Below are positions 3,319 through 36,419 of a DNA stretch of 40,354 bases, piece after piece (within the stretch, counting starts at the first letter, position 1; every line of letters begins with the position of its first letter). The position numbers and the translations under genes are program-made. Source of the stretch: a virus; the IMG/VR virus record IMGVR_UViG_3300021356_000049, positions 1 to 40,354 of that record; one strand, 5' to 3'. The notes beneath the pieces are model-generated. The model had not been told where the DNA came from. It saw only the letters and a list, made by a program, of their open reading frames with translations, and did no database searches.

Positions 3319-3682
3319 GTTAGCAGCACAAGCTGGATCAAAGATTTATGCAAACAGACAAAAAGCAAAAATGGCTATGTCTGAAGCACAATTGTTGCAT
3401 GCCGAAAAACAGGCTCGAGGTGAGGAAGCTTACCAAGGTAAATTGTTAGAAGCTAGACAATCTGACTGGAAGGACGAAGCCGTCCTCATAATCTTATCAA
3501 CTCCAGTGGCTGTGCTTGCTTGGGCAGTCGTATCAGACGACCCAACTGCAATGGACAAAGTAAAATTATTTTTTGAAATGTTTTCGCAACTACCATCTTG
3601 GTTCACAAATCTGTGGATTTTAGTTGTAGCAAGTATTTACGGTATTAAAGGGACACAAATATTTAGAAACGGCAAAAAATAA
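3299..3682 (+). CDS. Membrane protein, candidate holin (GTA 3TM-like)
   Basis: 127 residues with a charged N-terminal half, an SDWKDE motif at 55-60 and two strong membrane segments at about 61-79 and 100-122. The DxWKDE motif directly before the first membrane helix resembles the three-TM holins described for gene transfer agents and their phage relatives, which permeabilise the inner membrane at lysis. It starts at an ATG inside the end of the endonuclease gene and is followed two bases later by the methyltransferase. It lies far from the endolysin candidate at 14196, so the lysis role is inference. It could instead be a virion-associated membrane protein. Confidence 0.55.
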   Translation: MWLQAIKLAAQAGSKIYANRQKAKMAMSEAQLLHAEKQARGEEAYQGKLLEARQSDWKDEAVLIILSTPVAVLAWAVVSDDPTAMDKVKLFFEMFSQLPSWFTNLWILVVASIYGIKGTQIFRNGKK

Positions 3683-3684
3683 AT

Positions 3685-4272
3685 ATGATTGCAGGAGACA
3701 GTGCTGAATACGAACTTTTAGAAAAATGGTCTAAAGGTTTTGATTGTAATGGTTACTATTCATGTGAGATTGGAGTAAGAGAAGGTCTTGGCTCTAAAAT
3801 TATAATGGATAATGTTATAAATAACTACTTACACATTGGTATAGATCCTTATGGTGATTTAGTTTACCAACATTTAGATAATCAAAAAGATTGCCAGTGG
3901 CAAGGTTTAGAAAAAGGTGTAGCACCAACTTATTCTGACAAGCTACGAGACCAACTTTTAGAAGATTTCAAACCATACATAGAAAAAGGTAAATTTACAT
4001 TATCAAATATCACCGACACCCTATTTATGACCTATCCACCAAATCAAGATAAAAAATTTGCTTTTGTGCATTTTGATGGTCCCCACATGACAAAGGACGT
4101 TATTACAGAAGCAGTGTGGTTTGCTAATAGATCAGCCCCAAATACTAGATTTATCTTTGATGACTACCCACAATACAATCAAAGACTTATAAACGAAATG
4201 TTAGTGCCCTTTGGATTTATTGTAAAAGAAGAAGGCACACAAAAAATACTATTAGAGAAAAATGGCAATTGA
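3685..4272 (+). CDS. SAM-dependent methyltransferase (Methyltransf_24-like)
   Basis: 195 residues with a class I methyltransferase layout: motif I CEIGVREGLGS at 27-37 (SAM loop), an acidic strand end IGIDPYG at 51-57, HFDGPH at 129-134 and FIFDDY at 156-161. The pattern resembles small-molecule or sugar O-methyltransferases of the TylF/Methyltransf_24 type rather than DNA methyltransferases: there is no DPPY or PC motif. The substrate is unknown. It is cargo within the head module and overlaps the next gene by 11 bases. It may belong to the same decoration activity as the sulfotransferase, carbamoyltransferase and glycosyltransferases elsewhere in the window. Confidence 0.7.
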   Translation: MIAGDSAEYELLEKWSKGFDCNGYYSCEIGVREGLGSKIIMDNVINNYLHIGIDPYGDLVYQHLDNQKDCQWQGLEKGVAPTYSDKLRDQLLEDFKPYIEKGKFTLSNITDTLFMTYPPNQDKKFAFVHFDGPHMTKDVITEAVWFANRSAPNTRFIFDDYPQYNQRLINEMLVPFGFIVKEEGTQKILLEKNGN

Positions 4273-4450
4273 TACAGCATCGAATGATATAATAAAAAAT
4301 CTAATCCATAGACGGAGAGAAAGATTAAAAGATACTTTGATCCGTGATGTTGACAATGTTGAACAGCTTCACTATATTAGAGGACAAATCAAGTCACTTG
4401 ATGACTTGCAACAAGACATAATAGACTTGTTAAAAAAACAGGAGCAATAA
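4262..4450 (+). CDS. Small coiled-coil protein, unknown
   Basis: 62 residues, almost entirely helical, with heptad-like spacing (LHYIRGQIKSLDDLQQDIIDLL) and an RRRER cluster near the start. It begins inside the methyltransferase gene and ends two bases before groES. No membrane segment or catalytic motif is visible. Proteins of this kind are common next to scaffold genes in marine phages, where assembly roles are suspected but not shown. Confidence 0.6.
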   Translation: MAIDTASNDIIKNLIHRRRERLKDTLIRDVDNVEQLHYIRGQIKSLDDLQQDIIDLLKKQEQ

Positions 4451-4452
4451 AA

Positions 4453-4899
4453 ATGACAGAGTCCACGGAGCAACCGAAACGGACTGAGACATTGAAAAAC
4501 GCTTACAAAGATGAAGCTGAAGTCAAAAAAGTCTTAGACCAAAAAGCAATTGATAAATCATTATTAGATAGATTACCGACACCTACGGGTTATAGAATGT
4601 TAATTCTTCCGTATTCAGGTCCTAAAAAGACTAAAGGTGGTTTATATCTTAGTGAACAAACTCAAGAAACAATCCAATTAACAACAGTAGTTGGCCTTGT
4701 ACTTAAACAAGGGAATCTTTGTTATAGAGACAAAGAAAAATTTCCTTTAGGTAAATGGTGTAACGAAAAAGATTGGGTTATCTTCGGAAGATACGCAGGC
4801 TCTCGATTCAAAATAGATGGCGGAGAAGTGCGGATCTTAAACGATGATGAAATCATCGCTACCATATCTAATCCTGCTGATATTTTGCACCATTACTAG
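4453..4899 (+). CDS. groES: GroES-like co-chaperonin
   Basis: 148 residues. After a charged N-terminal extension of about 42 residues comes a Cpn10 fold: TGYRMLILPY, then the mobile-loop region KKTKGGLYLSEQTQE, then a second half with WVIFGRYAGSRFKIDGGEV and a C-terminal DDEIIATI strand. Bacterial GroES is about 97 residues, so this form is extended at the N-terminus and has a longer middle. Phage co-chaperonins such as T4 gp31 replace host GroES on GroEL to fold the capsid protein, and the place just before scaffold and capsid fits that. The last residues follow the domain and are not conserved in ordinary GroES. Confidence 0.85.
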   Translation: MTESTEQPKRTETLKNAYKDEAEVKKVLDQKAIDKSLLDRLPTPTGYRMLILPYSGPKKTKGGLYLSEQTQETIQLTTVVGLVLKQGNLCYRDKEKFPLGKWCNEKDWVIFGRYAGSRFKIDGGEVRILNDDEIIATISNPADILHHY

Positions 4900-4908
4900 G
4901 GAGGTAAA

Positions 4909-5922
4909 ATGGCAGAAGAACAAAAGTCTCAACAAGACGTTGAGCTAGATACTGATGGCGTTAATGAGGAATCCATTAGTGTTGAACAACCACAAGAACC
5001 TGATGATGCATTTGCAAAAAAAGAAAATGTTGATTTAGGATATACTGATCCAATACAAGAAACTAAAGAAGAAGCTGAATCTGAAGAAAAAAAGGAAGAG
5101 CCAAAAACTGAAGTTGAAGTAAAGGATGAGCAAGTTGAACCTAAGAAAGATAATCTTAAAAAAAAACAATCTGATTATCAAAAGAGGATCAACGAATTAG
5201 TCTTTGAAAAAAAAGAAGCAGAGAGAAGAGAAAAAGCTGCTTTGAACTATGCTAAAGGACTAAAAAAGAAATATCAGAACGTTGAGTCAAAACTTAATGA
5301 GACTGATAATAATTACCTTAAAGAAATCCAAGCAAGAGTAACTTCTGAACAAGATAAGTTAAAAACTTCTCTTAAAGAAGCTATGGAAGCTCAGGATGCT
5401 GAAAAGGTAGCTGAGATAAACTCTCAAATGACTAAATTAGCTGTCGAAAATGAGAAAGTTAATTTAACATTACAGGAGAGAGAAACTCAAAAAAAACAAC
5501 TTGAAGAAAACAAAGACTCACCAAAAGAAGAATCTGTACCTGGTGAACAACCTGTACAAGTTAGTCAGAAAGCTCAAGAATGGGCTTCTAAAAATGAGTG
5601 GTTTGGCACTGATAGAGTGTTAACTGGAGCTGCTATGGCTATTCATGAAGAACTTGTAGGGCAAGGTATTGAAACAGAAAGTGATGAGTATTATAATAAC
5701 ATTAACAAACGAATGAGAGAGTATTTCCCTCAACAGTTTGCCCAGGATTCGACTGACAAAGAGCCTGTAGTAACAAAGCAACCCGTCCAAAACGTTGCTG
5801 GGGTAAGTCGAAGACAAGGAGGACGCAAGTCTGTGAAACTCACCAAGTCACAGGTAGTTATCGCTAAGAAATTAGGGGTGCCACTAGAGGAATACGCAAA
5901 ATTCGTGAAGGGAGGAAACTAA
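4909..5922 (+). CDS. Scaffold protein
   Basis: 337 residues, very acidic in the first 80 (Glu-rich), then a long coiled coil from about 85 to 210, and a compact basic C-terminus with RRQGGRKSVKLTKSQ followed by a short amphipathic helix. Coiled coil plus basic C-terminus just upstream of the capsid gene is the usual layout of phage scaffolds, whose C-terminal helix binds the capsid protein during procapsid assembly. A strong site GGGAGG lies before the ATG. The stop overlaps the next ATG by one base. Family assignment rests on composition and position. Confidence 0.75.
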   Translation: MAEEQKSQQDVELDTDGVNEESISVEQPQEPDDAFAKKENVDLGYTDPIQETKEEAESEEKKEEPKTEVEVKDEQVEPKKDNLKKKQSDYQKRINELVFEKKEAERREKAALNYAKGLKKKYQNVESKLNETDNNYLKEIQARVTSEQDKLKTSLKEAMEAQDAEKVAEINSQMTKLAVENEKVNLTLQERETQKKQLEENKDSPKEESVPGEQPVQVSQKAQEWASKNEWFGTDRVLTGAAMAIHEELVGQGIETESDEYYNNINKRMREYFPQQFAQDSTDKEPVVTKQPVQNVAGVSRRQGGRKSVKLTKSQVVIAKKLGVPLEEYAKFVKGGN

Positions 5923-10676: not shown

Positions 10677-11317
10677 GTTATTTAAATGCAAACATACCTG
10701 TGCAATACGCACAGATAAGGAGGGAGTATCTTTATGATCTTAAAAAACATCATGGAGAAGTTGAAGACTGTATTATTTTTGGTGTTACATGCATTACGGG
10801 GCGTAGTCCACTTTTTCATTGTATTATGGAAAATGGAGCTGTCTTCTATCGTCTCCCAATATCTGCATTCATTCAAAGAGGTTTTGAACCGGACGATGTT
10901 CCTAAACGTAGGCTTGATGAGTTGGTTTTATGGAACTGTTTTAGTTACTATCCTGCTATTACTTCTTGGGACATTTTAGATGGACAAGCTGGTAAGTATA
11001 TCGGCAAAGATAAAAAATGGCATTCAGGCGCATATTTATTTACTATTGATTTTGCTCACCCTGAATCTAATATTATTGATACTGATCATTCTGAGATACC
11101 ACATGAACATAAATGTGCCCATGTTTTGGCTCTAGATGACGGTAACTATGCTGCACAGCCAAACAATAGGTTGATTTGGGACATTCCATCCTTTACAGTT
11201 AAGGATAATGTTCCTGATTGGAAAGTACAAACTTCTGAATGGAATGTTGAGGATTCAAGAAAATGGAAGACAGAAGATACAGATAAATTTTTTTACGAAA
11301 TAGAAGAAAAAAAATGA
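10673..11317 (+). CDS. Conserved marine phage protein, unknown
   Basis: 214 residues, no membrane segment. Conserved-looking stretches are DCIIFGVTCITGRSPLFHC, LPISAFIQRGFEPDDV, LDELVLWNCFSYYPA and EIPHEHKCAHVLALDDGNYA. I recall the same protein in many uncultured marine phages, always unannotated. The several His, Asp and Cys residues might bind metal, but no catalytic signature is evident. It begins within the previous stop and its last bases overlap the sulfotransferase start. It is probably the last core gene before the cargo cassette. Confidence 0.65.
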   Translation: MSYLNANIPVQYAQIRREYLYDLKKHHGEVEDCIIFGVTCITGRSPLFHCIMENGAVFYRLPISAFIQRGFEPDDVPKRRLDELVLWNCFSYYPAITSWDILDGQAGKYIGKDKKWHSGAYLFTIDFAHPESNIIDTDHSEIPHEHKCAHVLALDDGNYAAQPNNRLIWDIPSFTVKDNVPDWKVQTSEWNVEDSRKWKTEDTDKFFYEIEEKK

Positions 11318-12039
11318 AAAATTTTTATTTTCTGTGTTGTATGCCTAGATCTGGGCAAACTTATATAAATGCCATTTTAAATCAAAGTAAACAACTTAGA
11401 GTTTCTGCAAATAGTATTCTTCCGAACATATTTTATAATTTGAATAGTGTAACTGAATCAAGTATATACAAAAATTTTCCATATAAAAAAGGTTTAAATT
11501 TAATAGCTAAAAATATATTTGAAAATTATTATAGTGATATAAAACAAAATAATATTATTGATAACGGACCGTGGGGTACACCATACAATTTAAAAATTTT
11601 GCAAAGTATTTTCAATCAAAGAAAATTTATAATTTATACAAGACCTGTTTTAGAATGTTTAGCTTCTTTTATTAAAGTAGAAAAACCAAAAGATGTAAAA
11701 AAAAGATGTGATGAATTAATGGAACAAAATGGAAGAGTTCATAAATGTGCATGGTCTATACATCATTTAAAAAAAACAGAGCATTTTATAGAATTTAATT
11801 TTGATGAAATAGTAGATAATACTGATGAAGTAATTGAAAAAATATTTAAATTTTTAAATTTAGAAAATGAAAAATTATCTAAAAATGTAAAAAAATTCAT
11901 TTTTGATAATGTTGAGTATGATGATAGTGTTTTATACGGTCCTTTACATACACTCAAAAGGGATAATGATCCACATAATTATAAAGATTTTTTACCAAAC
12001 AGTGTAATACAAAAGTACAAACATTTTGATGAAAATTAA
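11314..12039 (+). CDS. Sulfotransferase-family protein
   Basis: 241 residues. MPRSGQTYI at 10-18 is the PAPS 5'-phosphosulfate loop. R110 and S118 in YTRPVLECLASFI have the eight-residue spacing of the 3'-phosphate-binding pair in sulfotransferases. The rest is a small alpha/beta domain as in Sulfotransfer_3. The enzyme would move sulfate from PAPS to a hydroxyl or amine on a glycan, peptide or small molecule; the substrate is not visible. It is the first gene of an AT-rich cassette, overlapping the unknown gene before it by four bases and the oxygenase after it by eleven. Composition is more AT-rich than the neighbouring core genes, which suggests transfer. Confidence 0.75.
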   Translation: MKNFYFLCCMPRSGQTYINAILNQSKQLRVSANSILPNIFYNLNSVTESSIYKNFPYKKGLNLIAKNIFENYYSDIKQNNIIDNGPWGTPYNLKILQSIFNQRKFIIYTRPVLECLASFIKVEKPKDVKKRCDELMEQNGRVHKCAWSIHHLKKTEHFIEFNFDEIVDNTDEVIEKIFKFLNLENEKLSKNVKKFIFDNVEYDDSVLYGPLHTLKRDNDPHNYKDFLPNSVIQKYKHFDEN

Positions 12040-12535
12040 AATATATCAAAATTTCATAGATAATGAATATTGTGACGTATTAAAAAATTGGATATTTAAA
12101 AATAAAAATTTATCATTTTTTTCAGATGCGAATATGAATGGTAAAAGAGTTACAACAAGATATTCAAAAGAAAATATCGTTTTTCCGCAAGAAGCTTTTG
12201 AAATAAAAAATAAAATTATAAATCACCTAAATTTAAAATTTTTTAAGCATGCTCCCTTTATTCATGGTATGTACGCTAGTATTGCTTTCAAAAACGATGA
12301 CTGTTATTTGCACAAAGATCCAAGGCACTATAATAATCACATTACGTTACATTGTAACTTGAAATTAAATGATACAGTTGGAGGTGATATTTTAGTAGAA
12401 GATCAAGTTTATAAATTAAACAAAGGTGATCTGTGGGTATACCCAACCTCAGAAATAAATCACGGGAGCAACAAACTTATTAGTGACAATAGATTAATTT
12501 GGGTGTATGGCTTTTGCTTATATGCAAATAGATAA
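12029..12535 (+). CDS. 2OG-Fe(II) oxygenase-like protein
   Basis: 168 residues from the ATG at 12029 (a TTG three bases earlier is less likely). It shows HKD at 95-97 and H145, the iron-binding triad, with R155 ten residues after the distal His to hold 2-oxoglutarate. The DSBH strands between them (ITLHCNLKLND, GGDILVEDQ, GDLWVYPT) are clear. Such enzymes hydroxylate amino acids, sugars or nucleobases. The substrate is unknown; between a sulfotransferase and a carbamoyltransferase it may create the hydroxyl group that those enzymes modify, which is inference. Confidence 0.75.
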   Translation: MKIKIYQNFIDNEYCDVLKNWIFKNKNLSFFSDANMNGKRVTTRYSKENIVFPQEAFEIKNKIINHLNLKFFKHAPFIHGMYASIAFKNDDCYLHKDPRHYNNHITLHCNLKLNDTVGGDILVEDQVYKLNKGDLWVYPTSEINHGSNKLISDNRLIWVYGFCLYANR

Positions 12536-13079
12536 AAAAATTAAATTAGAAAAAGTTACAAAATTATTAGAAAACAACGAAATTGTTGCTTTGTATCAAG
12601 GAGCTTCTGAAGCTGGCCCAAGAGCTTTAGGAAATAGATCATTTTTAATGAGTCCCATAAAAGAGATAAATAAAGTTACGATGAATAATGTGAAGGGAAG
12701 AGAATTGTTTAGACCTTTAGCAGCAAGTGTTTTACAAGAAAAAGCAAATGATTGGTTTGATATGTTAAATATAAAAGAGTCCCCTTACATGAGTTTTTCA
12801 TTTGAAGTAAGAGAAGATAAAAAAAATTTAGTTCCTGCTATTGTTCATGTTGATAACACCTGTAGAATACAAACAGTGACTAAATCACAGAATCTTTACT
12901 TATATAATATTATCAATTATTTTTATAAAAAAACGAAAATACCTATGTTAATGAACACATCTTTTAATTCTAAAGATGAACCTATCGTTGAAAGTGTTGA
13001 TGATGCTATAAATTGTTGTAAAAAAATAAATGTTAAATATATATTTTTTCCTCAAGCAAACACACTGATATCATTATGA
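12507..13079 (+). CDS. Carbamoyltransferase, C-terminal domain as a separate gene
   Basis: 190 residues. ASEAGPRALGNRSFL at 33-47, then KGRELFRPLAASVL and MLMNTSFNSKDEPIVES, are the hallmarks of the YrdC-like C-terminal domain of NodU/TobZ carbamoyltransferases, which makes carbamoyl adenylate from carbamoyl phosphate and ATP. Normal enzymes carry this after an N-terminal Kae1-like domain in one chain of 550-600 residues. Here it is alone and placed upstream of the N-terminal domain gene. Starts at 12507 or 12522 are both possible; both overlap the oxygenase. Its stop overlaps the next ATG (ATGA), so the two halves should be made together. Confidence 0.8.
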   Translation: MAFAYMQIDKKIKLEKVTKLLENNEIVALYQGASEAGPRALGNRSFLMSPIKEINKVTMNNVKGRELFRPLAASVLQEKANDWFDMLNIKESPYMSFSFEVREDKKNLVPAIVHVDNTCRIQTVTKSQNLYLYNIINYFYKKTKIPMLMNTSFNSKDEPIVESVDDAINCCKKINVKYIFFPQANTLISL

Positions 13080-14212
13080 TACTTTCACTTTCTAAAAATA
13101 ATCATGATGCTTCGTATTGTATTCTTAATGAAGAAGGCAAAATTATTTACTTTTCACAAGAAGAAAGATTTTCAAGAAAAAAACATTCATCTTTTTTTAA
13201 TAGTGAGTTTGCAGAACATGTTAAAGAAAGAATTAAATTTTTTAATATAAAAAAATTACATACTGTTTTAATTTCAAATTCTTTATGCACAAACAAAGAA
13301 CCTATGTCTTTGTTTAATTTTATCAAAAATCTTGATGTAACAGTTTGTTTTGGTAAACTTAATAATAAAGATCACCATAAGTCTCATGCCTTTTGTGGAT
13401 ATAGTTTTTCTTCATTTGATAATGCAGTTTGTTTAGTAATTGATGGCTGGGGTTCAAAATTTAAAATTGATAATTTTGTAGGTTATGAAAGCACATCAAT
13501 TTTTGAAATCGAAAAACAAAAAATAAAAACACTTTATAAAAAAATTAACTATGATTCCGGTAGATTTAAAATAGTAAATTCTAAGTTTATAAAAGATAAA
13601 ATAAAATATGATTTAGATATTACTCATCGTTTAGATTTAGGTGTTATGTATGGCACTGTGAGTAGACATCTTGGATTTAATTCTTTAGATGCAGGAAAAA
13701 CTATGGGTCTTGCATCATGGGGAAAACAAAATGAAAAAATACCCAATATGTTGTTAGAAAACAAATTTTGTAATATGAATTTATTTAAAAACGATAGAAC
13801 GTTAGATACTGAATATTACCCTTTTTTAAAAAATTTGTCGTTTGATGAAAAAAAAGATTTAGCTTATGCTATGCAACAAAGTTTAGAAAAGTATTTTATT
13901 AATTGTATGGAATATATAAGCAGTAAATCTAAAATTAAAAACATTATATTATCAGGGGGCTGTGCTTTAAATGTCATGGCTAATAGTGCGTTAGTTAAAA
14001 ATTTTCCAAAATATAATTTTTTTGTTGATCCTTTAGCTAGTGATGCGGGTCAATCTATAGGTCATGCAAAAATGTATTATAGTGAATTAGAAGATTTAGA
14101 GGGAATTAACAATTATAATAAGTCTTTTAAAGAAAAAGATGTATACTTGAATACATGTTATAATAAAGATACAATTTTAAACAATTTGAAAAAATATGAA
14201 ATTGACAGCTAA
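13076..14212 (+). CDS. Carbamoyltransferase, N-terminal Kae1-like domain as a separate gene
   Basis: 378 residues of the ASKHA fold. Visible motifs are NNHDAS at 8-13, EERFSRKKH at 29-37, the metal-site DHHKSHA at 99-105, VIDGWG at 121-126, GGCALNVMAN and SDAGQSIGHA. This half transfers the carbamoyl group to the acceptor. The protein stops at about the point where the domain linker would lead into the GPRALGNRS domain, which is instead encoded just upstream at 12507. The pair therefore keeps all parts but in circularly permuted, split order. The 3' end overlaps the peptidase gene by 17 bases. Confidence 0.8.
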   Translation: MILSLSKNNHDASYCILNEEGKIIYFSQEERFSRKKHSSFFNSEFAEHVKERIKFFNIKKLHTVLISNSLCTNKEPMSLFNFIKNLDVTVCFGKLNNKDHHKSHAFCGYSFSSFDNAVCLVIDGWGSKFKIDNFVGYESTSIFEIEKQKIKTLYKKINYDSGRFKIVNSKFIKDKIKYDLDITHRLDLGVMYGTVSRHLGFNSLDAGKTMGLASWGKQNEKIPNMLLENKFCNMNLFKNDRTLDTEYYPFLKNLSFDEKKDLAYAMQQSLEKYFINCMEYISSKSKIKNIILSGGCALNVMANSALVKNFPKYNFFVDPLASDAGQSIGHAKMYYSELEDLEGINNYNKSFKEKDVYLNTCYNKDTILNNLKKYEIDS

Positions 14213-14666
14213 CATAACCTTGGACGAGCTTACCAAAAGCCAGGTTGCTGAGAGGAAGGGAATCAATAATAATCCTAACCCAGCTCAAATAGAAAATTTA
14301 AAAGCATTGGCTGTAAATATATTACAGCCAGTTAGATCACATTTTGAAAAACCATTAATTATATCATCGGGATTCCGTTGTGCTCAGCTGTGCCTAGAGA
14401 TAGGAAGTTCAGTTAACAGCCACCATGTAGCAGATAATAATTGTGCTGCGGCAGATTTTGAAATACCTGGTGTAGATAATAGAGAACTTGCTCTTTGGAT
14501 TAGAAGAGAATTAACCTATGACCAACTCATCTTAGAATTTTACCGTGATAACGAACCAACTTCAGGCTGGATACATTGTTGCTACTCGACAGATCACAAC
14601 AGAAATCAACCACTCAGAGCCTACAGAGAGGACGGCAAGGTAGTCTACAAACCTTGGTTGGAATGA
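14196..14666 (+). CDS. M15 peptidase, probable endolysin
   Basis: 156 residues of the Peptidase_M15_3 type (D-Ala-D-Ala carboxypeptidase-like zinc enzyme). It has LIISSGFR at 54-61, SHH at 75-77 and D87 for zinc, and WIH at 125-127 for the third ligand. There is no signal peptide, so it needs a holin to reach the wall; candidates are the membrane proteins at 3299, 10578 and 36412. It would cut peptide cross-links of peptidoglycan. Less AT-rich than the cassette before it, which supports the cassette being an insertion upstream of a core gene. It overlaps the carbamoyltransferase half by 17 bases and the cupin by 4. Confidence 0.8.
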   Translation: MKLTANITLDELTKSQVAERKGINNNPNPAQIENLKALAVNILQPVRSHFEKPLIISSGFRCAQLCLEIGSSVNSHHVADNNCAAADFEIPGVDNRELALWIRRELTYDQLILEFYRDNEPTSGWIHCCYSTDHNRNQPLRAYREDGKVVYKPWLE

Positions 14667-15061
14667 TAATAAAAAAAAATTATCACAAGGATTTTCCAAG
14701 TTGGGATTCTTTACTAAATAATTTTAATCAAAGTTTAACGAAAAAAAAGATTATCAAACATAATGAATCTTTTTTAGTATCACATGAGGCAATAGAAATT
14801 CCTGAAGTAAAAAAATTTGCTCTTTTACTAGGCGCTAAGGATGCACATTTATACATGAGTTTTTTACCAAAAGCTAAAGGATTAGGAAGACATAAGGATC
14901 GTATGGATGTTGGTTTTTGGCAAGTAAAAGGAAAATCATTATGGAATATAAATGATAAATCTGCTATATTAGAAGAAGGAGATTACCTATTTATACCTAA
15001 AGGAACCTATCATGAAGTTATAGGTCTTAATGTGAGAGCAGGTATATCTTATGGTTTTTAA
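14663..15061 (+). CDS. Cupin-type Fe(II) oxygenase-like protein
   Basis: 132 residues. I chose the ATG at 14663, which overlaps the peptidase stop (ATGA); a longer frame from 14576 lies inside the peptidase. Beta strands surround HKD at 77-79, and GDYLFIPKGTYHEVI gives the distal His at 117, a facial triad like that of JmjC/cupin 2OG oxygenases. It ends RAGISYGF, with R125 able to hold an acidic cosubstrate. Substrate unknown. The placement of one more iron oxygenase directly beside the lysis enzyme repeats a pattern of this window. Confidence 0.6.
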   Translation: MIIKKNYHKDFPSWDSLLNNFNQSLTKKKIIKHNESFLVSHEAIEIPEVKKFALLLGAKDAHLYMSFLPKAKGLGRHKDRMDVGFWQVKGKSLWNINDKSAILEEGDYLFIPKGTYHEVIGLNVRAGISYGF

Positions 15062-26782: not shown

Positions 26783-26959
26783 ATGACTGTTTATCACAAA
26801 ATAAAATGCGAAACTAAAACTATTTATAGAAGTATTAAGACAGGTGAGAGATATGAAACAGAGGAGGCTTTTTTAGCTAACCATCCTAAAGAAGATTTAG
26901 CCACTGATGTTGAAGTGATGGTCCCTGATCTTCCTATATTTAGTAAAACAAAAAAATGA
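26783..26959 (+). CDS. Small acidic protein, unknown
   Basis: 58 residues, MTVYHKIKCETKTIYRSIKT then an acidic stretch with ETEEAFLANHPKEDL and a VPDLPIF end. It fills the interval up to the glycosyltransferase and its TGA overlaps the next ATG (ATGA). An AT-rich -10-like sequence lies upstream, but no convincing -35. Unknown function. Confidence 0.5.
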   Translation: MTVYHKIKCETKTIYRSIKTGERYETEEAFLANHPKEDLATDVEVMVPDLPIFSKTKK

Positions 26960-27888
26960 ATCCATTAGGCGGAACTGAATTACAATACAAGTTTTTACAA
27001 GACAATGTTGAAAAGTCTTTGTTAGATCAATTTCAAATATGTTTGTCTGTACCAGGTAAGGTTCCTTTATCAGCTAATAAAATAAATATACTTTGGCAAA
27101 AAAATTCTTGGGACCAACCACCTCTACAACCATTCTTTAAAGATAAATCAAGACACAAAGAATATGATTACTATGTTTTTAATAGTCATTGGAATTATGA
27201 AAACTTTAGAAAACGTTTTGATATACCACAAGAAAGATGCACTGTAATAAAAAATGGAATACCTGATATAAAACAAAGAAACGCAGAACAAAAGAAAGAT
27301 AAAATAAAACTTATATATCACCCTACTCCATGGAGAGGGTTATCTGTATTACTTGGTGCAATGCAACTGATCAAAAATCCAAACATAGAGTTAGATGTAT
27401 ATAGTAGCACTAAAGTTTATGGATCGGAGTTTGAAAAACAAAATGATGATCAATACAAAGCTTTGTATGATCAAGCTAAAATTTTACCTAATGTAAATTA
27501 CATTGGATACAAATCAAATGAATACATATTAGATAATCTTCATACGTATGATGCTTTTGTTTATCCTAATATATGGGAAGAAACATTTTGTATATCAGCA
27601 CTCGAAGCTTTAGCATGTGGTCTAGCTGTAGTGACAACGGACAACGGAGCACTTTATGAAACTTGTTCTGAGTTTCCAGTGTATGTACCTATGGATACAA
27701 ATTACAATAATTTAGCTGTACAATTTGCTTCTGTGATTGATGGATTACCTGAGCAACTGAATACGCCAGGTTTTCAATATCACTTAAAGTTTCAACAAAA
27801 GTTTTTTAATCATTTTTATCACTGGAAAAATATTGCCGGACAATGGACAAGTTTCTTGAAAGGAGCTGTAAATGCAAGATCCAAGTAA
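26956..27888 (+). CDS. Glycosyltransferase, GT4-type
   Basis: 310 residues of the GT-B fold. GGTE at 5-8 is a nucleotide-sugar loop usually preceded by a longer strand in relatives, so this start is short; an upstream in-frame stop at 26944 prevents extension. The C-terminal domain shows KLIYHPTPWRGLSVLL and EETFCISALEALACG, with the E-x7-E of retaining GT4 enzymes. It would transfer a sugar from an activated donor. The next gene is another glycosyltransferase overlapping by 17 bases, so the pair probably builds one glycan. Confidence 0.75.
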   Translation: MNPLGGTELQYKFLQDNVEKSLLDQFQICLSVPGKVPLSANKINILWQKNSWDQPPLQPFFKDKSRHKEYDYYVFNSHWNYENFRKRFDIPQERCTVIKNGIPDIKQRNAEQKKDKIKLIYHPTPWRGLSVLLGAMQLIKNPNIELDVYSSTKVYGSEFEKQNDDQYKALYDQAKILPNVNYIGYKSNEYILDNLHTYDAFVYPNIWEETFCISALEALACGLAVVTTDNGALYETCSEFPVYVPMDTNYNNLAVQFASVIDGLPEQLNTPGFQYHLKFQQKFFNHFYHWKNIAGQWTSFLKGAVNARSK

Positions 27889-28696
27889 ACCAATGTGGTT
27901 TAATAAAACAATTGAACCTAAAATTGAAACAAAACCAAATAAGAAGTTTTCTATATTTGTTGCTACACCTGTACATAGCGAAGTATCTATTCACTACTTT
28001 CAAGCTTGCTTAGAATTTCAAAAGCATTGTTTAAAGAATGATGTACTTGCTTCTTTCCAAGTAATGAAATCATCTCTTATAACTCAAGGTCGTAATTTAT
28101 GTGTATCTAGTTTTATGGAATCAAAGCATACTCATTTATTATTTGTAGATTCAGATATAGAATTTCAAACTCAATCTGTTTTTAAAATGTTAGCTTCTGA
28201 TAAAGATATTATTTCAGTTCCTTATCCATTAAAACAATTAATGTGGGATAAAGCTTGGGAGAGAATAACGAAAGGTAATATTAAAAATTCTAAAGATTTA
28301 AAATTTAAAGGTCTTTATACTTATCCTATGAAAGTAAAAGACGATAAGAATATAAAGATAGAAAATGGTATTATTGAAGTTACTCATTCTCCAACAGGAT
28401 GTATGCTTATAAAAAGAGAAGTTATCGAAAAAATGATTGATGCTTATCCAAATACAGAAATAGTATCTAAAACAGTTATCAACGGAGAATTAATCAATAG
28501 ACCTTATTTTTATAACCTTTTTGATACTATGTATGATCCTGTCAATAAATCATATCTTGGTGAGGACTTTGCTTTCTGTAAGAGATGGAAAGATATTGGC
28601 GGTAAATGTCATGCTCTCATAACCGACCGAATTACTCATGTGGGTGAACATCAGTATAGAGGCTGTTTTGCTGATGAGTTGATAAAGACTGAGTAA
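27872..28696 (+). CDS. Glycosyltransferase, GT-A-type
   Basis: 274 residues. DSD at 93-95 in LLFVDSDIEF is the metal/sugar-nucleotide motif of GT-A enzymes. THSPTGCMLIKREV and YLGEDFAFCKRWKD are characteristic of a family seen often in marine phages. Ribosome site AAAGGAG lies inside the preceding gene. Possible acceptors are the tail fibre, the gp10-like protein or a host surface glycan. No signal peptide, so it acts in the cytoplasm. Confidence 0.75.
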   Translation: MQDPSKPMWFNKTIEPKIETKPNKKFSIFVATPVHSEVSIHYFQACLEFQKHCLKNDVLASFQVMKSSLITQGRNLCVSSFMESKHTHLLFVDSDIEFQTQSVFKMLASDKDIISVPYPLKQLMWDKAWERITKGNIKNSKDLKFKGLYTYPMKVKDDKNIKIENGIIEVTHSPTGCMLIKREVIEKMIDAYPNTEIVSKTVINGELINRPYFYNLFDTMYDPVNKSYLGEDFAFCKRWKDIGGKCHALITDRITHVGEHQYRGCFADELIKTE

Positions 28697-30266: not shown

Positions 30267-31129
30267 TGGGTTCTATTGTTAAAAGTGTATTCGGAGGCGG
30301 TGGAAGTAGTGCACCTGCACCATCATCAGGTGGATCACAATTTACTCAATCCGTAATTAGAGAAGCTCCAGGTATAGAAGAACGTAAAATAGAATTGATG
30401 GATCTAGCACGTGCCGCTGCAGATCAACCTGTAAATATTCCTGATATGCAAGTTGCACCATTTGGTGCGCTAGAACAACAAGGATTAACGGCTGCCGGAA
30501 CAACAGGAGTTGGCGCTCCAACTGTTACATCGGGCATCGGACAATTACTTGCAGCACAAACACCAAATATAAATCAATTTTTTAATCCTTATCAATCTTA
30601 TGTAGTAGATGAAATTAACAGACAAGCAGCACAAGCTCAAAATAGATTAGGCGCACAAGCAGTTTTATCAGGAGCATTTGGTGGTGGAAGAGAAGGAGTT
30701 GCACAAGCAGAATTAGAAAGAGCAAGACTAGGTCAAGTTGGTTTAGCTCAACAACAAGGATTTGGTCAAGCTTTACGAGCTGCCCAACAGCAGCAACAAC
30801 AACAAGCAGCTATCGGTGGTCAGTTAGCTAGTATAGGTGCTGGTCAACAACAAATGGCTCAAGCAGATATTAATCAATTATTACAAGCAGGTGGATTACA
30901 AAGACAACTTGCTCAAACAACTTTAGATGCAGCAAGACAATCACAATTACAACAAGCATATGAACCTTACCAAAGAGCTGAGTTTCTTTCTAACATCTAT
31001 GCTGCTGGACCTAAATCACAATCTACGATTACAGCTTCGACTCAGCCACAAACTAGTCCACTAGCTCAATCTATTGGAACTGGTATTGGAGCTTTCCAAG
31101 CATTCCAAGGTATGCAAGGGAGGGGTTAA
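30266..31129 (+). CDS. Internal virion/ejection protein, Gln-rich
   Basis: 287 residues, Gly/Ser-rich at the start, then a Gln/Ala-rich helical region including a run of seven to eight Gln around 173-180 and many AQ repeats. Predicted to be a long flexible helix. It joins both neighbours by one-base overlaps, typical of the gp14-type protein of T7-like ejection modules. The role is inferred from order. Confidence 0.6.
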   Translation: MGSIVKSVFGGGGSSAPAPSSGGSQFTQSVIREAPGIEERKIELMDLARAAADQPVNIPDMQVAPFGALEQQGLTAAGTTGVGAPTVTSGIGQLLAAQTPNINQFFNPYQSYVVDEINRQAAQAQNRLGAQAVLSGAFGGGREGVAQAELERARLGQVGLAQQQGFGQALRAAQQQQQQQAAIGGQLASIGAGQQQMAQADINQLLQAGGLQRQLAQTTLDAARQSQLQQAYEPYQRAEFLSNIYAAGPKSQSTITASTQPQTSPLAQSIGTGIGAFQAFQGMQGRG

Positions 31130-33354
31130 TGTCTCTCAATAAAGTTTTAAACAGACCACTGTTTCGACAACAAGCTTTGAAGAAAGGTGCATTAAAACCT
31201 ATCAAAGCTTTTGATGGTCGTATGATAGGGATGCCAACAGGAGGTTCTTCTGCTTACAATCCAAATAGAGTTCCAGTGGTTGTGCCACAACCAGGATTAT
31301 TTAGTAGAGCAGGTCAATTTTTAAAAAGAACTGGAAGAGATATTAGATCTTTTCCAAGATCTGTTCCAGGTCAAGTTATGAACCCAAGAACAAGAGTTCC
31401 TTTTGGTATGGGAGGTGGTATAAGTAGATTATTTGTGGCTCCTATGGGTACTTATGATGCAGTATCAGCTATGACAGACAAGATAGGAATGAAACCTGGT
31501 ATGCTAAAAACTGGAGTAGATTTTGGTTTAAGTGGATTAGCATTATTAAATCCTTACACAAGAGCTGCAGGTTTAGCTTATGGTGCTTATAATTTGGCTA
31601 GACCTTTAGTAGGGGGAGCTATTGATTATGTAACTCAAAAACCTATAGGGACTACAAGTCAAGCATTAGATGTGAGAAATTATCTTGGCGAACCAATTCA
31701 AACAAGTTTGTTCTCTCCTATAGATACAAGTAAAAGAGAAACTAGAAAAGAAAGAAGAGATAGAAAAAAATTAGAAAGGGTTGCTCAAGCTGAAGGATCA
31801 GAAGTAGGGATAGTACCTGATCAATTAACTCAGCCACAAAACGAAACTCAATTAGGACAAACAGAAGTTGTTGATTTAAACAAAACAATTAGAAACAGAA
31901 GAGGTGAATCAGTATTAGAACCAACTGTACCAGTGCAAACTGTTGCACAAGTAAAAGAACAACCTAGTGGTATTGATGGAGGACTTGAAGGTCCTGTTGG
32001 TGTTGAGGGCAAAGATATATCAATTAAACCTAAAGCACCTGTTAAAGAAAATGCATTACAACAAGCACAAAAAATTTACCAAGATTCTACTGAAGGTAAA
32101 GGAACTGAAAGACCTATTGGTGGTAAGTTATTTACATCTGATTTAATTGAAAGAGCTAAACAAATAAGAAGTGAACTTGGTCAAGATCCACAAGGTGATT
32201 TAGCTAGAACAACATTCTTATCTACATTAGCTGCAGGTCTTATGGGAGGCACAACAAGAAAAAGAGGTCTTGGTGGTGCGTTAGAAGTATTTGGTAATGC
32301 TTTAGGTCCAGCAGTAAGTAACTATGCTGTGATGAAACTTAAACAAAACGAATTAGAAAACAAATCTATGGAAACTTATTTAGGTTATGCCTTAGATGAA
32401 ATGAAATTATTTAATGAAGCTTTAGCTGGTGAACCATTTGGTGGTGAATTAGGTGTTGTTCAATTTATTGATGATAATGGTAATACAATAAATGTAAAAG
32501 GTAGACAAACAAAAGGCGGAACAATTGAATTTGCTACAGGTCAAATAGGTCCTAGAGGTAATGAAATTTATGCATCTATTTCTAGTCAAGCAAATGTTCC
32601 TGGTTTTGGTAAAGTAAATCAATTTTTAGATAAGAAAACAGTAGATACTGAAACAATAAAGATTGGTGAAATTTTATCAGGAAGATATAAAACATTTAAA
32701 ATTACTAATGACGTATTAGATACAATAGCTGAGCAACCTAAATCAGTTGGACCTGCTGGTGCAATTAATTTGTTCAAAACACGTGTAGGATCTGCATTAT
32801 CTGACTTAGGATTCTCATTCGGTGCTTCTAAAGAAGAAGCAAGAGGTATTGCTGAATCATATAGAGCACAGATAGAAGCTTCTGATTTAGACGAAGATAC
32901 TAAGAAAAGATTATTAAAGAGCACAGACTTTAACAAATTATATAAAGATGCTGAGAAAAGAATAAAAAGTAGAGTGGGTGGTAAAGTAGATTCTGAAACA
33001 TTAGAAGAACTAGCAGTGGCAGAAACAACTTTGGTATATGCATTAGCTAACTCATTTAAAGATAAAGATAGATTGACTGCTAGAGACGTAGCTGCTGCTG
33101 AAAAACTTGTAAACCTATTTACATTAACAAGAGGTTCTAAAGCTGTAGAAGCATCAATCAGAGCGATTGGTAAACAACTACAAGATGATATCATAAGATA
33201 TGAAAACGATTATAGAAGAGTTGGTGGTCTTGAAAGAACTCTTCAAAACATGAGACAGCAAAATCAATTTAGATTGACAGGAGGCGGAACTATTACAGAT
33301 CAATTTATTAAAACATTAGATGAAGCTGGTTTATTAGAGGAGTTTAATAAATAA
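31129..33354 (+). CDS. Internal virion/ejection protein
   Basis: 741 residues. Basic, Gly-rich start with a hydrophobic stretch near 125-160, then a helical charged body and a C-terminal helix. No catalytic motif such as a transglycosylase glutamate loop is recognised. Its length and order (after a Gln-rich protein, before the 1021-residue protein) match gp15-like ejection proteins of podoviruses. Joined by one-base overlaps on both sides. Confidence 0.65.
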   Translation: MSLNKVLNRPLFRQQALKKGALKPIKAFDGRMIGMPTGGSSAYNPNRVPVVVPQPGLFSRAGQFLKRTGRDIRSFPRSVPGQVMNPRTRVPFGMGGGISRLFVAPMGTYDAVSAMTDKIGMKPGMLKTGVDFGLSGLALLNPYTRAAGLAYGAYNLARPLVGGAIDYVTQKPIGTTSQALDVRNYLGEPIQTSLFSPIDTSKRETRKERRDRKKLERVAQAEGSEVGIVPDQLTQPQNETQLGQTEVVDLNKTIRNRRGESVLEPTVPVQTVAQVKEQPSGIDGGLEGPVGVEGKDISIKPKAPVKENALQQAQKIYQDSTEGKGTERPIGGKLFTSDLIERAKQIRSELGQDPQGDLARTTFLSTLAAGLMGGTTRKRGLGGALEVFGNALGPAVSNYAVMKLKQNELENKSMETYLGYALDEMKLFNEALAGEPFGGELGVVQFIDDNGNTINVKGRQTKGGTIEFATGQIGPRGNEIYASISSQANVPGFGKVNQFLDKKTVDTETIKIGEILSGRYKTFKITNDVLDTIAEQPKSVGPAGAINLFKTRVGSALSDLGFSFGASKEEARGIAESYRAQIEASDLDEDTKKRLLKSTDFNKLYKDAEKRIKSRVGGKVDSETLEELAVAETTLVYALANSFKDKDRLTARDVAAAEKLVNLFTLTRGSKAVEASIRAIGKQLQDDIIRYENDYRRVGGLERTLQNMRQQNQFRLTGGGTITDQFIKTLDEAGLLEEFNK

Positions 33355-36300
33355 TGGCTACTCTAGAACAATTACAAGAACAATTAGATAATAGATCTTT
33401 AGATCCATCTACTCTTTCAAATAAACAAAGAAGAATTATTGATGAGTTAATTAGTAGAGGTAAATTAAAAGGACCTACTACTTCTCAGTTAACAGAGCAA
33501 AGACAAGAAGCAGCCCAAGATATTGCAAGAGAAGAAGAGTTTAGAAGAGATCCTATTGCAACAGCACTAGCTGCTGAAGATTCGTTTTTTAAAGGAAGAC
33601 CAACAGCAGTATTCGCTGGTGATATTACAGGAAGTATTACTCCTTACTTGATGATGAGAGAAAAAATTTATGGTGCAGCTAAATCAGGTAATCTTTGGAA
33701 AAAAGGTCCAGGTAAAATGGCACAAGTTGCAGCTGGTGTAGCAGATAGATTACCAGGCAGATTAAAATTATTAGGAGGTGCATTTAAATTATTAGGTAGA
33801 GTAGCCGATGTACCAACAAAAGTATTACAAAGTCCATTAGGTAGAGCAGAAATTTACTCAATACTTGGTGGAACGGCAGGAGCGGGAGCAGGTTCAATTA
33901 CATATGATATGTTAAATGAGCAAGCTGGAACATTCATAGCATCACAAATCTCAGATCAATTTGCAGATTTAAAACCAGGAGAAGTAGATGCAGATATTAC
34001 ATTGAATGCGTTAAATGAAATGAAGTCAGCATTGATGTGGAATGCTGGTGCATCATTACTTACACCATTAATTACAGGACCATTAGGTAAAGCAGGTAAA
34101 AAACTTTTTGGTACAACAGGACCAAAACAAAAAGAACTTGCAGAGTATGCAAGAGATAAAGGCTTACCTATTCCACTAATTCAAGCAATGAATGACGGAC
34201 CGCTAACAGATGTTGGTAAAGGTTTTTTTAAAACTGTTGGTGTATTCCCATTTATAGGTCCAATAGCTAATCAAGCTTTTCAAGGTGCAGAGCAAAAAGC
34301 AGGTAAAATGTTTTTAGACCAATTAACAACATACGCACCTTTAATGAAAACAGGTGCATTATCTCATTCTATTTATAACCAAGCAGCAAAAGTATTTAAT
34401 GATAATATGGATTTAATTGGTGCTAAATACGATGCATTTGAAAGATTAGCAGATACTATCGGTAACCCAGCTATTATTAAATTAGATAAAACTGTAGCTA
34501 AAGCCCAAGAGTTAAGACAAGCATTTGCACAAGCTTTCCCTGATACTCAAAGATCAATTCAAGCTAAGAATATTGATGAAACTCTAAAACAATCTGGTGA
34601 CCCTATAAATTTATTTTATGATGCTATGGATGCTATTGGAACTAACGCAATTACACCAAAACAATATAAAGGTGTAATTCAAATGTTAAATAATGCAATA
34701 CAAGGCACAGATTATAGAACTTTAGGTAGACAACTATTTATGATTAGAGAAGCATTAGAAAATGACTTCAATGCTTTTGGTGCAAATCTCACAAAAAATG
34801 CTTTCTTACAAGATCCAGGATTAAAAGCTACTTTCGATGGTTTAGCTAAACAAAGCACTGAAAGAGCAGAGGCTTTCATTCAACAAAACATTAGAAATGG
34901 TGAGAAGTTGAGAGATAAACTTTACGATGCTAACGCAACATTCAACAAAGTATTAAATATGTATACAACACCAGCTGCTGCTAGATCATTACAAAAGTTT
35001 GATAGAACATTATTTACAAACAAAGGTACATTTGGAATTGTAGGGAGAGAAGCCCTACCAAGAGATTTATTATTCTCAACTATGGAAAGAGATGTTTTTC
35101 AATCTAATTCACCTGAAGCTTTAAAAAGTTTCAAAACATTAATTGGTGCTGAAGGTAAATATGCTACTGAAAATGGTAAACAATTATTTCAAGCTGCGAA
35201 AGCCAGATATATGTTCAATGCATTTTTAGATTCTTTTGACTCAGCTACAGCTCCACAAGCCAAATCAGTATTTAGAGATACAATTGATTTAGCACCAGGT
35301 GTCAAAGCTGGTACAGAGTATGCACAAGACGTAATGGAAAGATTAGGTACAGATTCAATTGAACAAGCAAGAGGTTTTAGAATTGAAGATGTAAGAACGG
35401 GTAATGGAGTATTTGATGTGAAAGATATTAGATTCTCACCTGAAGATTTCGCACAGTTTAATATTAATAAGTTTATGAACAAACTTGGTATTGGTAAAGC
35501 AACAGAGGATCTTGGTCGAGATAAGATGGTAGAGATGTTAGGTAAAGATGGTGCTAAACAATTCTATGGTTTTACTAATTACATGAAATCTATTTCTGAT
35601 ATTCCTGTATCAGATACATCAACTTTCTTACAAAGAAGATTCACACTAGGATCATTAGGATCTGTAGCTGGTGGTATGTTTATTGGTGGTGCTGCTTTTG
35701 CTGTGAACCCATTTGCACCTGCAATATTTTTATTATTAGCAAGGAGAGCAGGTTTAATGCTTACCGATCCTACTGCATTAAGATATATGAATGATGCCTT
35801 ATTACCTGAAGAACAAATCAAATTGTTAAAAGGTCAATCTATTGGTGAAGCACAAAAAGGTTTGTTTGGTACTACAAGAAAGTTTACTGGAAGAAGTATC
35901 AATCCAAAACTAACAGCTGTGGGTTTAACAAGAAAGAGAGATGCTTTTGCTAGATTATACAATTACTTTGCAGATCAAGAACAAGATTTACCAAGAGTAG
36001 ATCCAAGAACTGTTGATCCAAAAGAAATACAACAAAGATTATTAAACTTATCTTTTCAAGTACCACAACCTATTTACGATGATAAAAATTTACCAAAGGA
36101 TGTTGTTGAAACAATGTTTGCTGGTGACTTTACAAAGTCATCGGGTAACAAAGCACTTGATAATGACATGGTGGCATACTTAGATCAAACAGTAAAAGCA
36201 GATGAAGATACTATGTTAGAGCAAGCTCAAAGAGATCAAGAGGCAGATGATCCAAGTGTTACTGCAGATCTACAATTACAACCTGCATTTGGTCAGCAAC

Positions 36301-36419
36301 AGATGGCACAAGCGCCACAAGTACCACAAGGTCAAGCTACAGCTCAAGACGTTCAAGCTTTATTTCCATTTGATACAACAGCACAAGCTATAGCTCAAAG
36401 GAGACAGAATCGTGGCTAA
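33354..36419 (+). CDS. Large internal virion/ejection protein
   Basis: 1021 residues, the largest gene here. The N-terminal third contains several Gly-rich and hydrophobic segments. A strong hydrophobic stretch with VAGGMFIGGAAFAV and PFAPAIFLLLA near 770-800 is suited to form the membrane channel. The tail (last 60 residues) is Gln-rich and acidic. T7 gp16-like proteins have the same order but normally carry a lytic transglycosylase; I do not see that domain. Confidence 0.65.
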   Translation: MATLEQLQEQLDNRSLDPSTLSNKQRRIIDELISRGKLKGPTTSQLTEQRQEAAQDIAREEEFRRDPIATALAAEDSFFKGRPTAVFAGDITGSITPYLMMREKIYGAAKSGNLWKKGPGKMAQVAAGVADRLPGRLKLLGGAFKLLGRVADVPTKVLQSPLGRAEIYSILGGTAGAGAGSITYDMLNEQAGTFIASQISDQFADLKPGEVDADITLNALNEMKSALMWNAGASLLTPLITGPLGKAGKKLFGTTGPKQKELAEYARDKGLPIPLIQAMNDGPLTDVGKGFFKTVGVFPFIGPIANQAFQGAEQKAGKMFLDQLTTYAPLMKTGALSHSIYNQAAKVFNDNMDLIGAKYDAFERLADTIGNPAIIKLDKTVAKAQELRQAFAQAFPDTQRSIQAKNIDETLKQSGDPINLFYDAMDAIGTNAITPKQYKGVIQMLNNAIQGTDYRTLGRQLFMIREALENDFNAFGANLTKNAFLQDPGLKATFDGLAKQSTERAEAFIQQNIRNGEKLRDKLYDANATFNKVLNMYTTPAAARSLQKFDRTLFTNKGTFGIVGREALPRDLLFSTMERDVFQSNSPEALKSFKTLIGAEGKYATENGKQLFQAAKARYMFNAFLDSFDSATAPQAKSVFRDTIDLAPGVKAGTEYAQDVMERLGTDSIEQARGFRIEDVRTGNGVFDVKDIRFSPEDFAQFNINKFMNKLGIGKATEDLGRDKMVEMLGKDGAKQFYGFTNYMKSISDIPVSDTSTFLQRRFTLGSLGSVAGGMFIGGAAFAVNPFAPAIFLLLARRAGLMLTDPTALRYMNDALLPEEQIKLLKGQSIGEAQKGLFGTTRKFTGRSINPKLTAVGLTRKRDAFARLYNYFADQEQDLPRVDPRTVDPKEIQQRLLNLSFQVPQPIYDDKNLPKDVVETMFAGDFTKSSGNKALDNDMVAYLDQTVKADEDTMLEQAQRDQEADDPSVTADLQLQPAFGQQQMAQAPQVPQGQATAQDVQALFPFDTTAQAIAQRRQNRG

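Follow-up and report, generated by a model that had tools for sequence, protein, structure and literature searches.

Gene content of the locus

The sequence analyzed here (hereafter the window) is the 40,354-nucleotide marine phage record IMGVR_UViG_3300021356_000049 of IMG/VR, in which the two domains of a carbamoyltransferase are encoded by two separate, overlapping genes (Table 1). Specifically, the open reading frame (ORF) at 12507-13079 matched Carbam_trans_C (PF16861, E=8.5e-57, profile positions 2-163 of 170), and the ORF at 13076-14212 matched Carbam_trans_N (PF02543, E=2.2e-26, profile positions 126-345 of 346), bearing out an initial annotation in which the C-domain gene was placed ahead of the N-domain gene and joined to it by ATGA. 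Against PHROG 1601, a single-chain carbamoyltransferase of 528 positions, the C ORF aligned with positions 354-523 and the N ORF with positions 3-328, and hence the two jointly span almost the entire chain. Relatives of the C half with solved structures included VtdB (7xb6, E=3e-34), NovN, GdmN, and TobZ. A search of the window for further N or C domains returned none besides this single C and single N.

Table 1. Features of the carbamoyltransferase locus, in window coordinates
Feature	Position	Strand	Basis
Sulfotransferase gene, first of the cassette	11314..12039	+	PF13469 E=7.5e-9, PF00685 E=1e-8
2OG-Fe(II)-oxygenase-like gene, overlaps the C gene	12029..12535	+	weak PHROG 61 match E=3.5e-5
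C-half gene (YrdC-like, putative carbamoyl-AMP-forming domain)	12522..13079	+	185 aa; PF16861
GPRALGNRS motif, C half, residues 32-40 counted from ATG 12522	12615..12641	+	conservation in split C
ATGA overlap, C-gene stop and N-gene start	13076..13079	+	sequence
N-half gene (Kae1-like, putative carbamoyl-transfer domain)	13076..14212	+	378 aa; PF02543, TobZ E=6e-14
HHxxH codons H100-H104, metal ligands (TobZ H114, H118)	13373..13387	+	TobZ alignment
D123, metal ligand (TobZ D137)	13442..13444	+	TobZ alignment
D323, metal ligand (TobZ D338)	14042..14044	+	TobZ alignment

Although the C ORF is open from an ATG at 12507 (190 aa), the C genes of its relatives begin in register with the ATG at 12522, so the upstream start is probably wrong. 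In these relatives, the split C begins at the profile start (median leader of 0 aa) and the split N terminates near the end of the N domain, while fused enzymes have a median linker of about 12 aa. Judged by these boundaries, the break in the window pair falls at the normal linker, and all parts are present, as the initial annotation had also proposed. The ATGA overlap makes translational coupling of the two genes probable.

Conserved residues and comparison with known enzymes

When the window N chain was aligned with the TobZ chain (PDB numbering offset of 6), its residues H100, H104, D123, D323, and H10 fell on TobZ H114, H118, D137, D338, and H14, the first four of which are the metal ligands. 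In GdmN, the equivalent ligands coordinate iron, and the general base has been proposed to be H27 (PMC9633730). All 74 split N sequences have H100, H104, and D123, and all 73 in which the position is represented have D323; the H10 equivalent is retained in 60 of the 74. The 51 split C sequences are invariant at R34-S40, N55, K58, R60, E61, R64, N145-S147, and N149, with P33 of GPRALGNRS present in 46 of them, and the window pair retains the GPRALGNRS, VKGRE, and NTSFN motifs. The metal and adenylate residues, whose loss had been named in the initial annotation as the mark of a relic, are thus all in place, and since the ligands, H10, and the C-domain motifs are intact together, neither half is a relic. 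Elsewhere in the collection, the first of two tandem fused genes at one locus (L026, 964-2160) has lost metal ligands, carrying K-Q-S-D-F at the five key positions, and is probably an inactive duplicate N domain.

The class III enzymes TobZ, GdmN, NovN, VtdB, and NodU share with the window pair both domains, the H-H-D-D ligands, the general-base His (TobZ H14, GdmN H27), and the GPRALGNRS and NTSFN motifs (PMC9633730). They are, however, single chains, whereas the window has two genes with C first. Of the features that define the class, the window pair has a Kae1-like domain with four metal ligands and a YrdC-like C domain that bears the motifs of the carbamoyl-phosphate/ATP site, but in place of one chain ordered N then C it has two ORFs in the opposite order, and we accordingly file it as a variant rather than as a plain member.

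HypF carries its YrdC domain before its Kae1 domain along one chain, following additional N-terminal domains (acylphosphatase and zinc fingers). The window pair shares this YrdC-like-then-Kae1-like order, and because the order is natural in HypF, only among NodU/TobZ enzymes is it out of the ordinary. The window pair nevertheless lacks the complete set of HypF domains (acylphosphatase, zinc fingers, YrdC, and Kae1), and for it the HypF model TIGR00143 gave only a partial match to the Kae1-like part (21.5 bits vs. a cut-off of 466). The t6A proteins TsaC/Sua5 and TsaD/Kae1 likewise separate the adenylate-forming protein from the transferring one, but t6A synthesis moves a threonylcarbamoyl group to tRNA, and the window halves match Carbam_trans_N and Carbam_trans_C far better.

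Among phages, a TobZ-related enzyme is already described for the carbamoylation of 5-hydroxymethylcytosine (5hmC); it is a single chain with the motif GPRALCNTT (eLife 2021, PMC8670742), in contrast to the GPRALGNRS of the window C half, with its TobZ-type G421 and R423. No thymidylate synthase gene was recognized beside the window pair, whose annotated neighbors are the sulfotransferase, the 2OG-like gene, and an M15 peptidase. A role in 5hmC modification is disfavored for the window on both counts. The cyanophage pairs annotated as "Nol-like carbamoyltransferase" in S-SCSM1, S-RIM44, and Sf-FP1 have the same C-then-N order and similarly tight junctions, but the first S-SCSM1 pair and the pairs of S-RIM44 and Sf-FP1 fall in a clade other than that of the window and adjoin a thymidylate synthase gene, while the window N is nearer to the second S-SCSM1 N. 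In S-SCSM1 (L001, NC_070962.1, 2627-6209), the C-N-C-N array lies behind the thymidylate synthase gene, and each of its four members bears a carbamoyltransferase annotation.

Recurrence of the C-first layout

Searches of phage records with tblastn recovered C-then-N pairs in S-SCSM1, S-RIM44, Sf-FP1, and Marine virus AG-345-D19, with the two S-SCSM1 pairs arranged in tandem. When the viral_contigs collection was scanned with single window-half proteins as queries, no matches were obtained; two scans with alignment queries yielded 160 loci. The layouts were tallied by profile search of 167 loci, a set from which repeat entries for the window and L010 had been removed. A C gene directly followed by an N gene was found at 38 of the 167, a split in N-then-C order only at 5, and fused genes only at 119, which, as the loci were chosen by similarity to the window halves, are not natural frequencies. 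Across 43 complete C-then-N junctions, the spacing ranged from -20 to +61 bases, with 41 lying between -20 and +4 and 18 having the same -4 overlap as the window. Among the best 80 cellular loci, 77 have a fused gene, one (L172) an N-then-C split, and one (L217) a C-then-N split, while in the remaining locus (L191) the N is cut by the contig end. The C-then-N pair of L217, from a Lachnospiraceae MAG (3336-4978), has an ATGA overlap, and its halves are nearest to cellular rather than phage sequences, which suggests a separate origin.

The C-N order is neither chance nor an assembly error of this one contig, as it occurs in many independent contigs and in sequenced phage genomes. Hence, whether other phages keep this order, a check called for by the initial annotation, is answered by the 38 loci, four sequenced marine phage records among them, and the idea that the rearrangement is a transitional step was not borne out, as the layout is widespread, diversified, and stable. 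From the sequences compared, the two-gene, C-first carbamoyltransferase is an established design and no accident. In our survey of the literature, which covered mainly open-access papers, no carbamoyltransferase was described as split or as having its C domain first. The two-gene, C-first NodU/TobZ-type form is thus real, conserved, and apparently undescribed, and phage genes annotated as repeated carbamoyltransferases resolve into complementary halves of one enzyme.

Descent, co-divergence, and selection

In the N tree, the window falls within an all-split group of 30 sequences (support 97), with L090 as its sister. In the C tree, it belongs to a clade of 8 sequences (support 99), again all split. 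The same partners of the window, namely L090, L010, L093, and L095, are common to these matching clades. Parsimony placed five changes between split and fused forms on the N tree and three on the C tree, of which strong branches force at least two and at least one, respectively. These counts suggest more than one such event while fixing neither the number nor the direction. One possible route is tandem duplication, in which an N-C N-C arrangement lost its outer halves; tandem fused genes do occur among the loci, but the trees leave the direction of change unresolved.

Across 39 C-then-N pairs, mirror-tree comparison gave a correlation of 0.61 between C and N distances (permutation maximum of 0.14). 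This fits partner proteins, although linkage alone is expected to predict part of the same signal. Wherever it could be measured among close relatives, dN/dS was 0.04-0.38 for C and N genes, and both halves are under purifying selection there. For the window against L090, a comparison with high dS, the C ratio was 0.20 and the N ratio 0.35.

Predicted pairing of the halves

Single-chain folds were predicted for relatives that have both genes in one frame, with the separating stop read as a residue; the sets of alignment rows were adjusted beforehand, solely according to where the rows were placed, and the best of five models was chosen by pLDDT. For L080, a relative of the window pair, the C-Q-N pseudo-chain with its one-residue join reached a pLDDT of 89.3 and a pTM of 0.82 from 69 alignment rows, 3 of them paired. 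By our own simple estimates, such a pTM would result from domains placed with a mean error of about 6-7 Å, and poorly placed domains would be expected to give 0.63-0.75. A pseudo-chain of adjacent halves from different pairs (N1-C2 of L096) gave a pTM of 0.69 and superposed on TobZ with an rmsd of 16-17 Å. The difference between 0.82 and 0.69 fits a model in which each C pairs specifically with its downstream N, but it is only indicative, since locus, linker, and paired-row count were not the same in the two predictions. The L080 model did not superpose on HypF (rmsd of approximately 23 Å), a comparison made in sequence order; because Foldseek aligns in this way and a permuted docking is not recognizable to it, the C-N geometry cannot be compared with that of TobZ. 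Taken as predictions, the folds lend moderate support to a two-subunit enzyme.

Cassette and genome setting

The window pair belongs to a conserved cassette. Homologues of the sulfotransferase lie upstream of C-N in L090, L010, L093, and L095, and homologues of the 2OG-like gene lie directly upstream in L090, L010, and L093. Among the closest homologues, the order sulfotransferase, 2OG-like, C, N is kept in three, in which the sulfotransferase is separated from the 2OG-like gene by one gene (L090 and L010) or by several (L093); in L095 the order is sulfotransferase, C, N. L010 further carries an APS-kinase-like gene and a cytidylyltransferase/ATP-sulfurylase-like gene, both from weak matches, which would be in keeping with PAPS supply for sulfation. 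Nod-factor decoration combines sulfation (NodH) with carbamoylation (NodU/NolO), and the resemblance of the cassette to that system may serve as a hint to the acceptor.

The window portal shows 60% similarity to that of Pelagibacter phage HTVC023P, which marks the virus as pelagiphage-like. In HTVC023P, the interval from capsid to M15 peptidase holds different genes, including one annotated PurM, and the carbamoyltransferase thus occupies a variable accessory site. A JmjC/cupin-like gene, possibly another 2OG-type oxygenase, follows the M15 peptidase at 14576-15061; two adjacent genes with glycosyltransferase/radical-SAM-like matches form a second accessory site at 26956-28696; and the region 31129-36419 holds large genes of 741 and 1021 aa without NCBIfam or PHROG match.

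Proposed function and alternatives

Co-divergence, purifying selection, and the pTM of 0.82 in a relative make a two-subunit enzyme the best reading. Specifically, we propose, with a probability of about 0.74, that the window pair works as a class III O-carbamoyltransferase of the NodU/TobZ type, made of two subunits and encoded by a pelagiphage-like virus. In this reading, the C chain would bind ATP and carbamoyl phosphate to form carbamoyl-AMP, and the N chain, holding the metal and the acceptor site, would pass the carbamoyl group to a hydroxyl of the acceptor. The overlapping frames would give coupled, near-equal translation, such that the pair could assemble while being made, and once the chain is cut, gene order would be irrelevant to the protein. 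Within its cassette, the enzyme probably decorates a glycan or small molecule during infection. The initial annotation had likewise read the halves as a two-subunit enzyme; that part stands on the intact parts, co-divergence, selection, and the relative's fold, while the role it tentatively assigned to the pair as a step toward another form does not.

Two alternatives would deny that the two genes make two working chains. Ribosomal frameshifting near the overlap could yield a single permuted C-N chain, and the N frame of the window is indeed open for 39 bases upstream of the N ATG and contains a T6 run. The window has no canonical slippery heptamer, however, the N frame of L010 is closed directly before its N ATG, and a search of the loci turned up no fused C-N chain; we consider this very unlikely and reject it. 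Still less credible is that the pair is a decaying remnant or an assembly artefact of a normal fused enzyme, a reading favored by nothing beyond the split itself and rejected given the intact residues, the purifying selection, and the recurrence in many contigs and sequenced phages.

Other readings concern loci in which N genes outnumber C genes. An excess of N over neighboring C genes was counted at 20 loci, with L011 and L039 excluded for their uncertain tallies; the layouts include N-C-N, C-N-C-N-N, C-N-N-C-N-N, and a fused enzyme plus an extra N, and nearly all of the N genes retain the metal ligands. One tentative explanation is a modular enzyme in which a common C chain supplies carbamoyl-AMP to more than one N chain, much as TsaC/Sua5 supplies adenylate to Kae1/TsaD in tRNA modification, with the window as the minimal one-C, one-N case. 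Under such an arrangement, which we hold possible though doubtful, one C would serve exchangeable N subunits, each with its own acceptor, leaving the order free and allowing N genes to multiply and diverge. In three of four array groups (L094/L096, L101/L106, and L099/L100/L104), the C genes are 84-95% identical, while the N genes that follow them are only 50-63% identical. N is also less conserved than C in fused enzymes, however, where median N identity is 74% (range 41-91) at C identities of 82-96%, the L012/L043 array is off the pattern, array pairs are very few, and the window itself has one C and one N. Given the faster change of N in fused enzymes and the L012/L043 misfit, a shared C subunit is put forward only as a hypothesis, one that extends the two-subunit reading and is no alternative to a functional split. 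Less probable again is that extra or split N chains are noncatalytic partners, like TsaB beside TsaD, making the C-N pair part of a larger assembly. A small-N class of 254-286 aa with a shorter middle region (L004, L012, L032, L035, L066, L072, and L074), found at C-N and multi-N loci, has Asn at the TobZ H14 equivalent, the substitution that also distinguishes H14N, a variant whose solved structure includes the carbamoyl adenylate intermediate (PDB 3vex). Yet this class retains all four metal ligands, and the window N retains these together with H10.

Should the two-subunit reading hold, it would bear on how class III enzymes handle their intermediate. In those described, a single chain both makes and uses the reactive carbamoyl-AMP, which passes from one site to the other. 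With a natural two-chain version, one could test directly whether channelling of the intermediate is required. The diverse phage pairs and multi-N arrays offer material for subunit mixing. Arrays with a conserved C and diverged N genes lie at about 350-6500 in L094, L096, L101, and L111.
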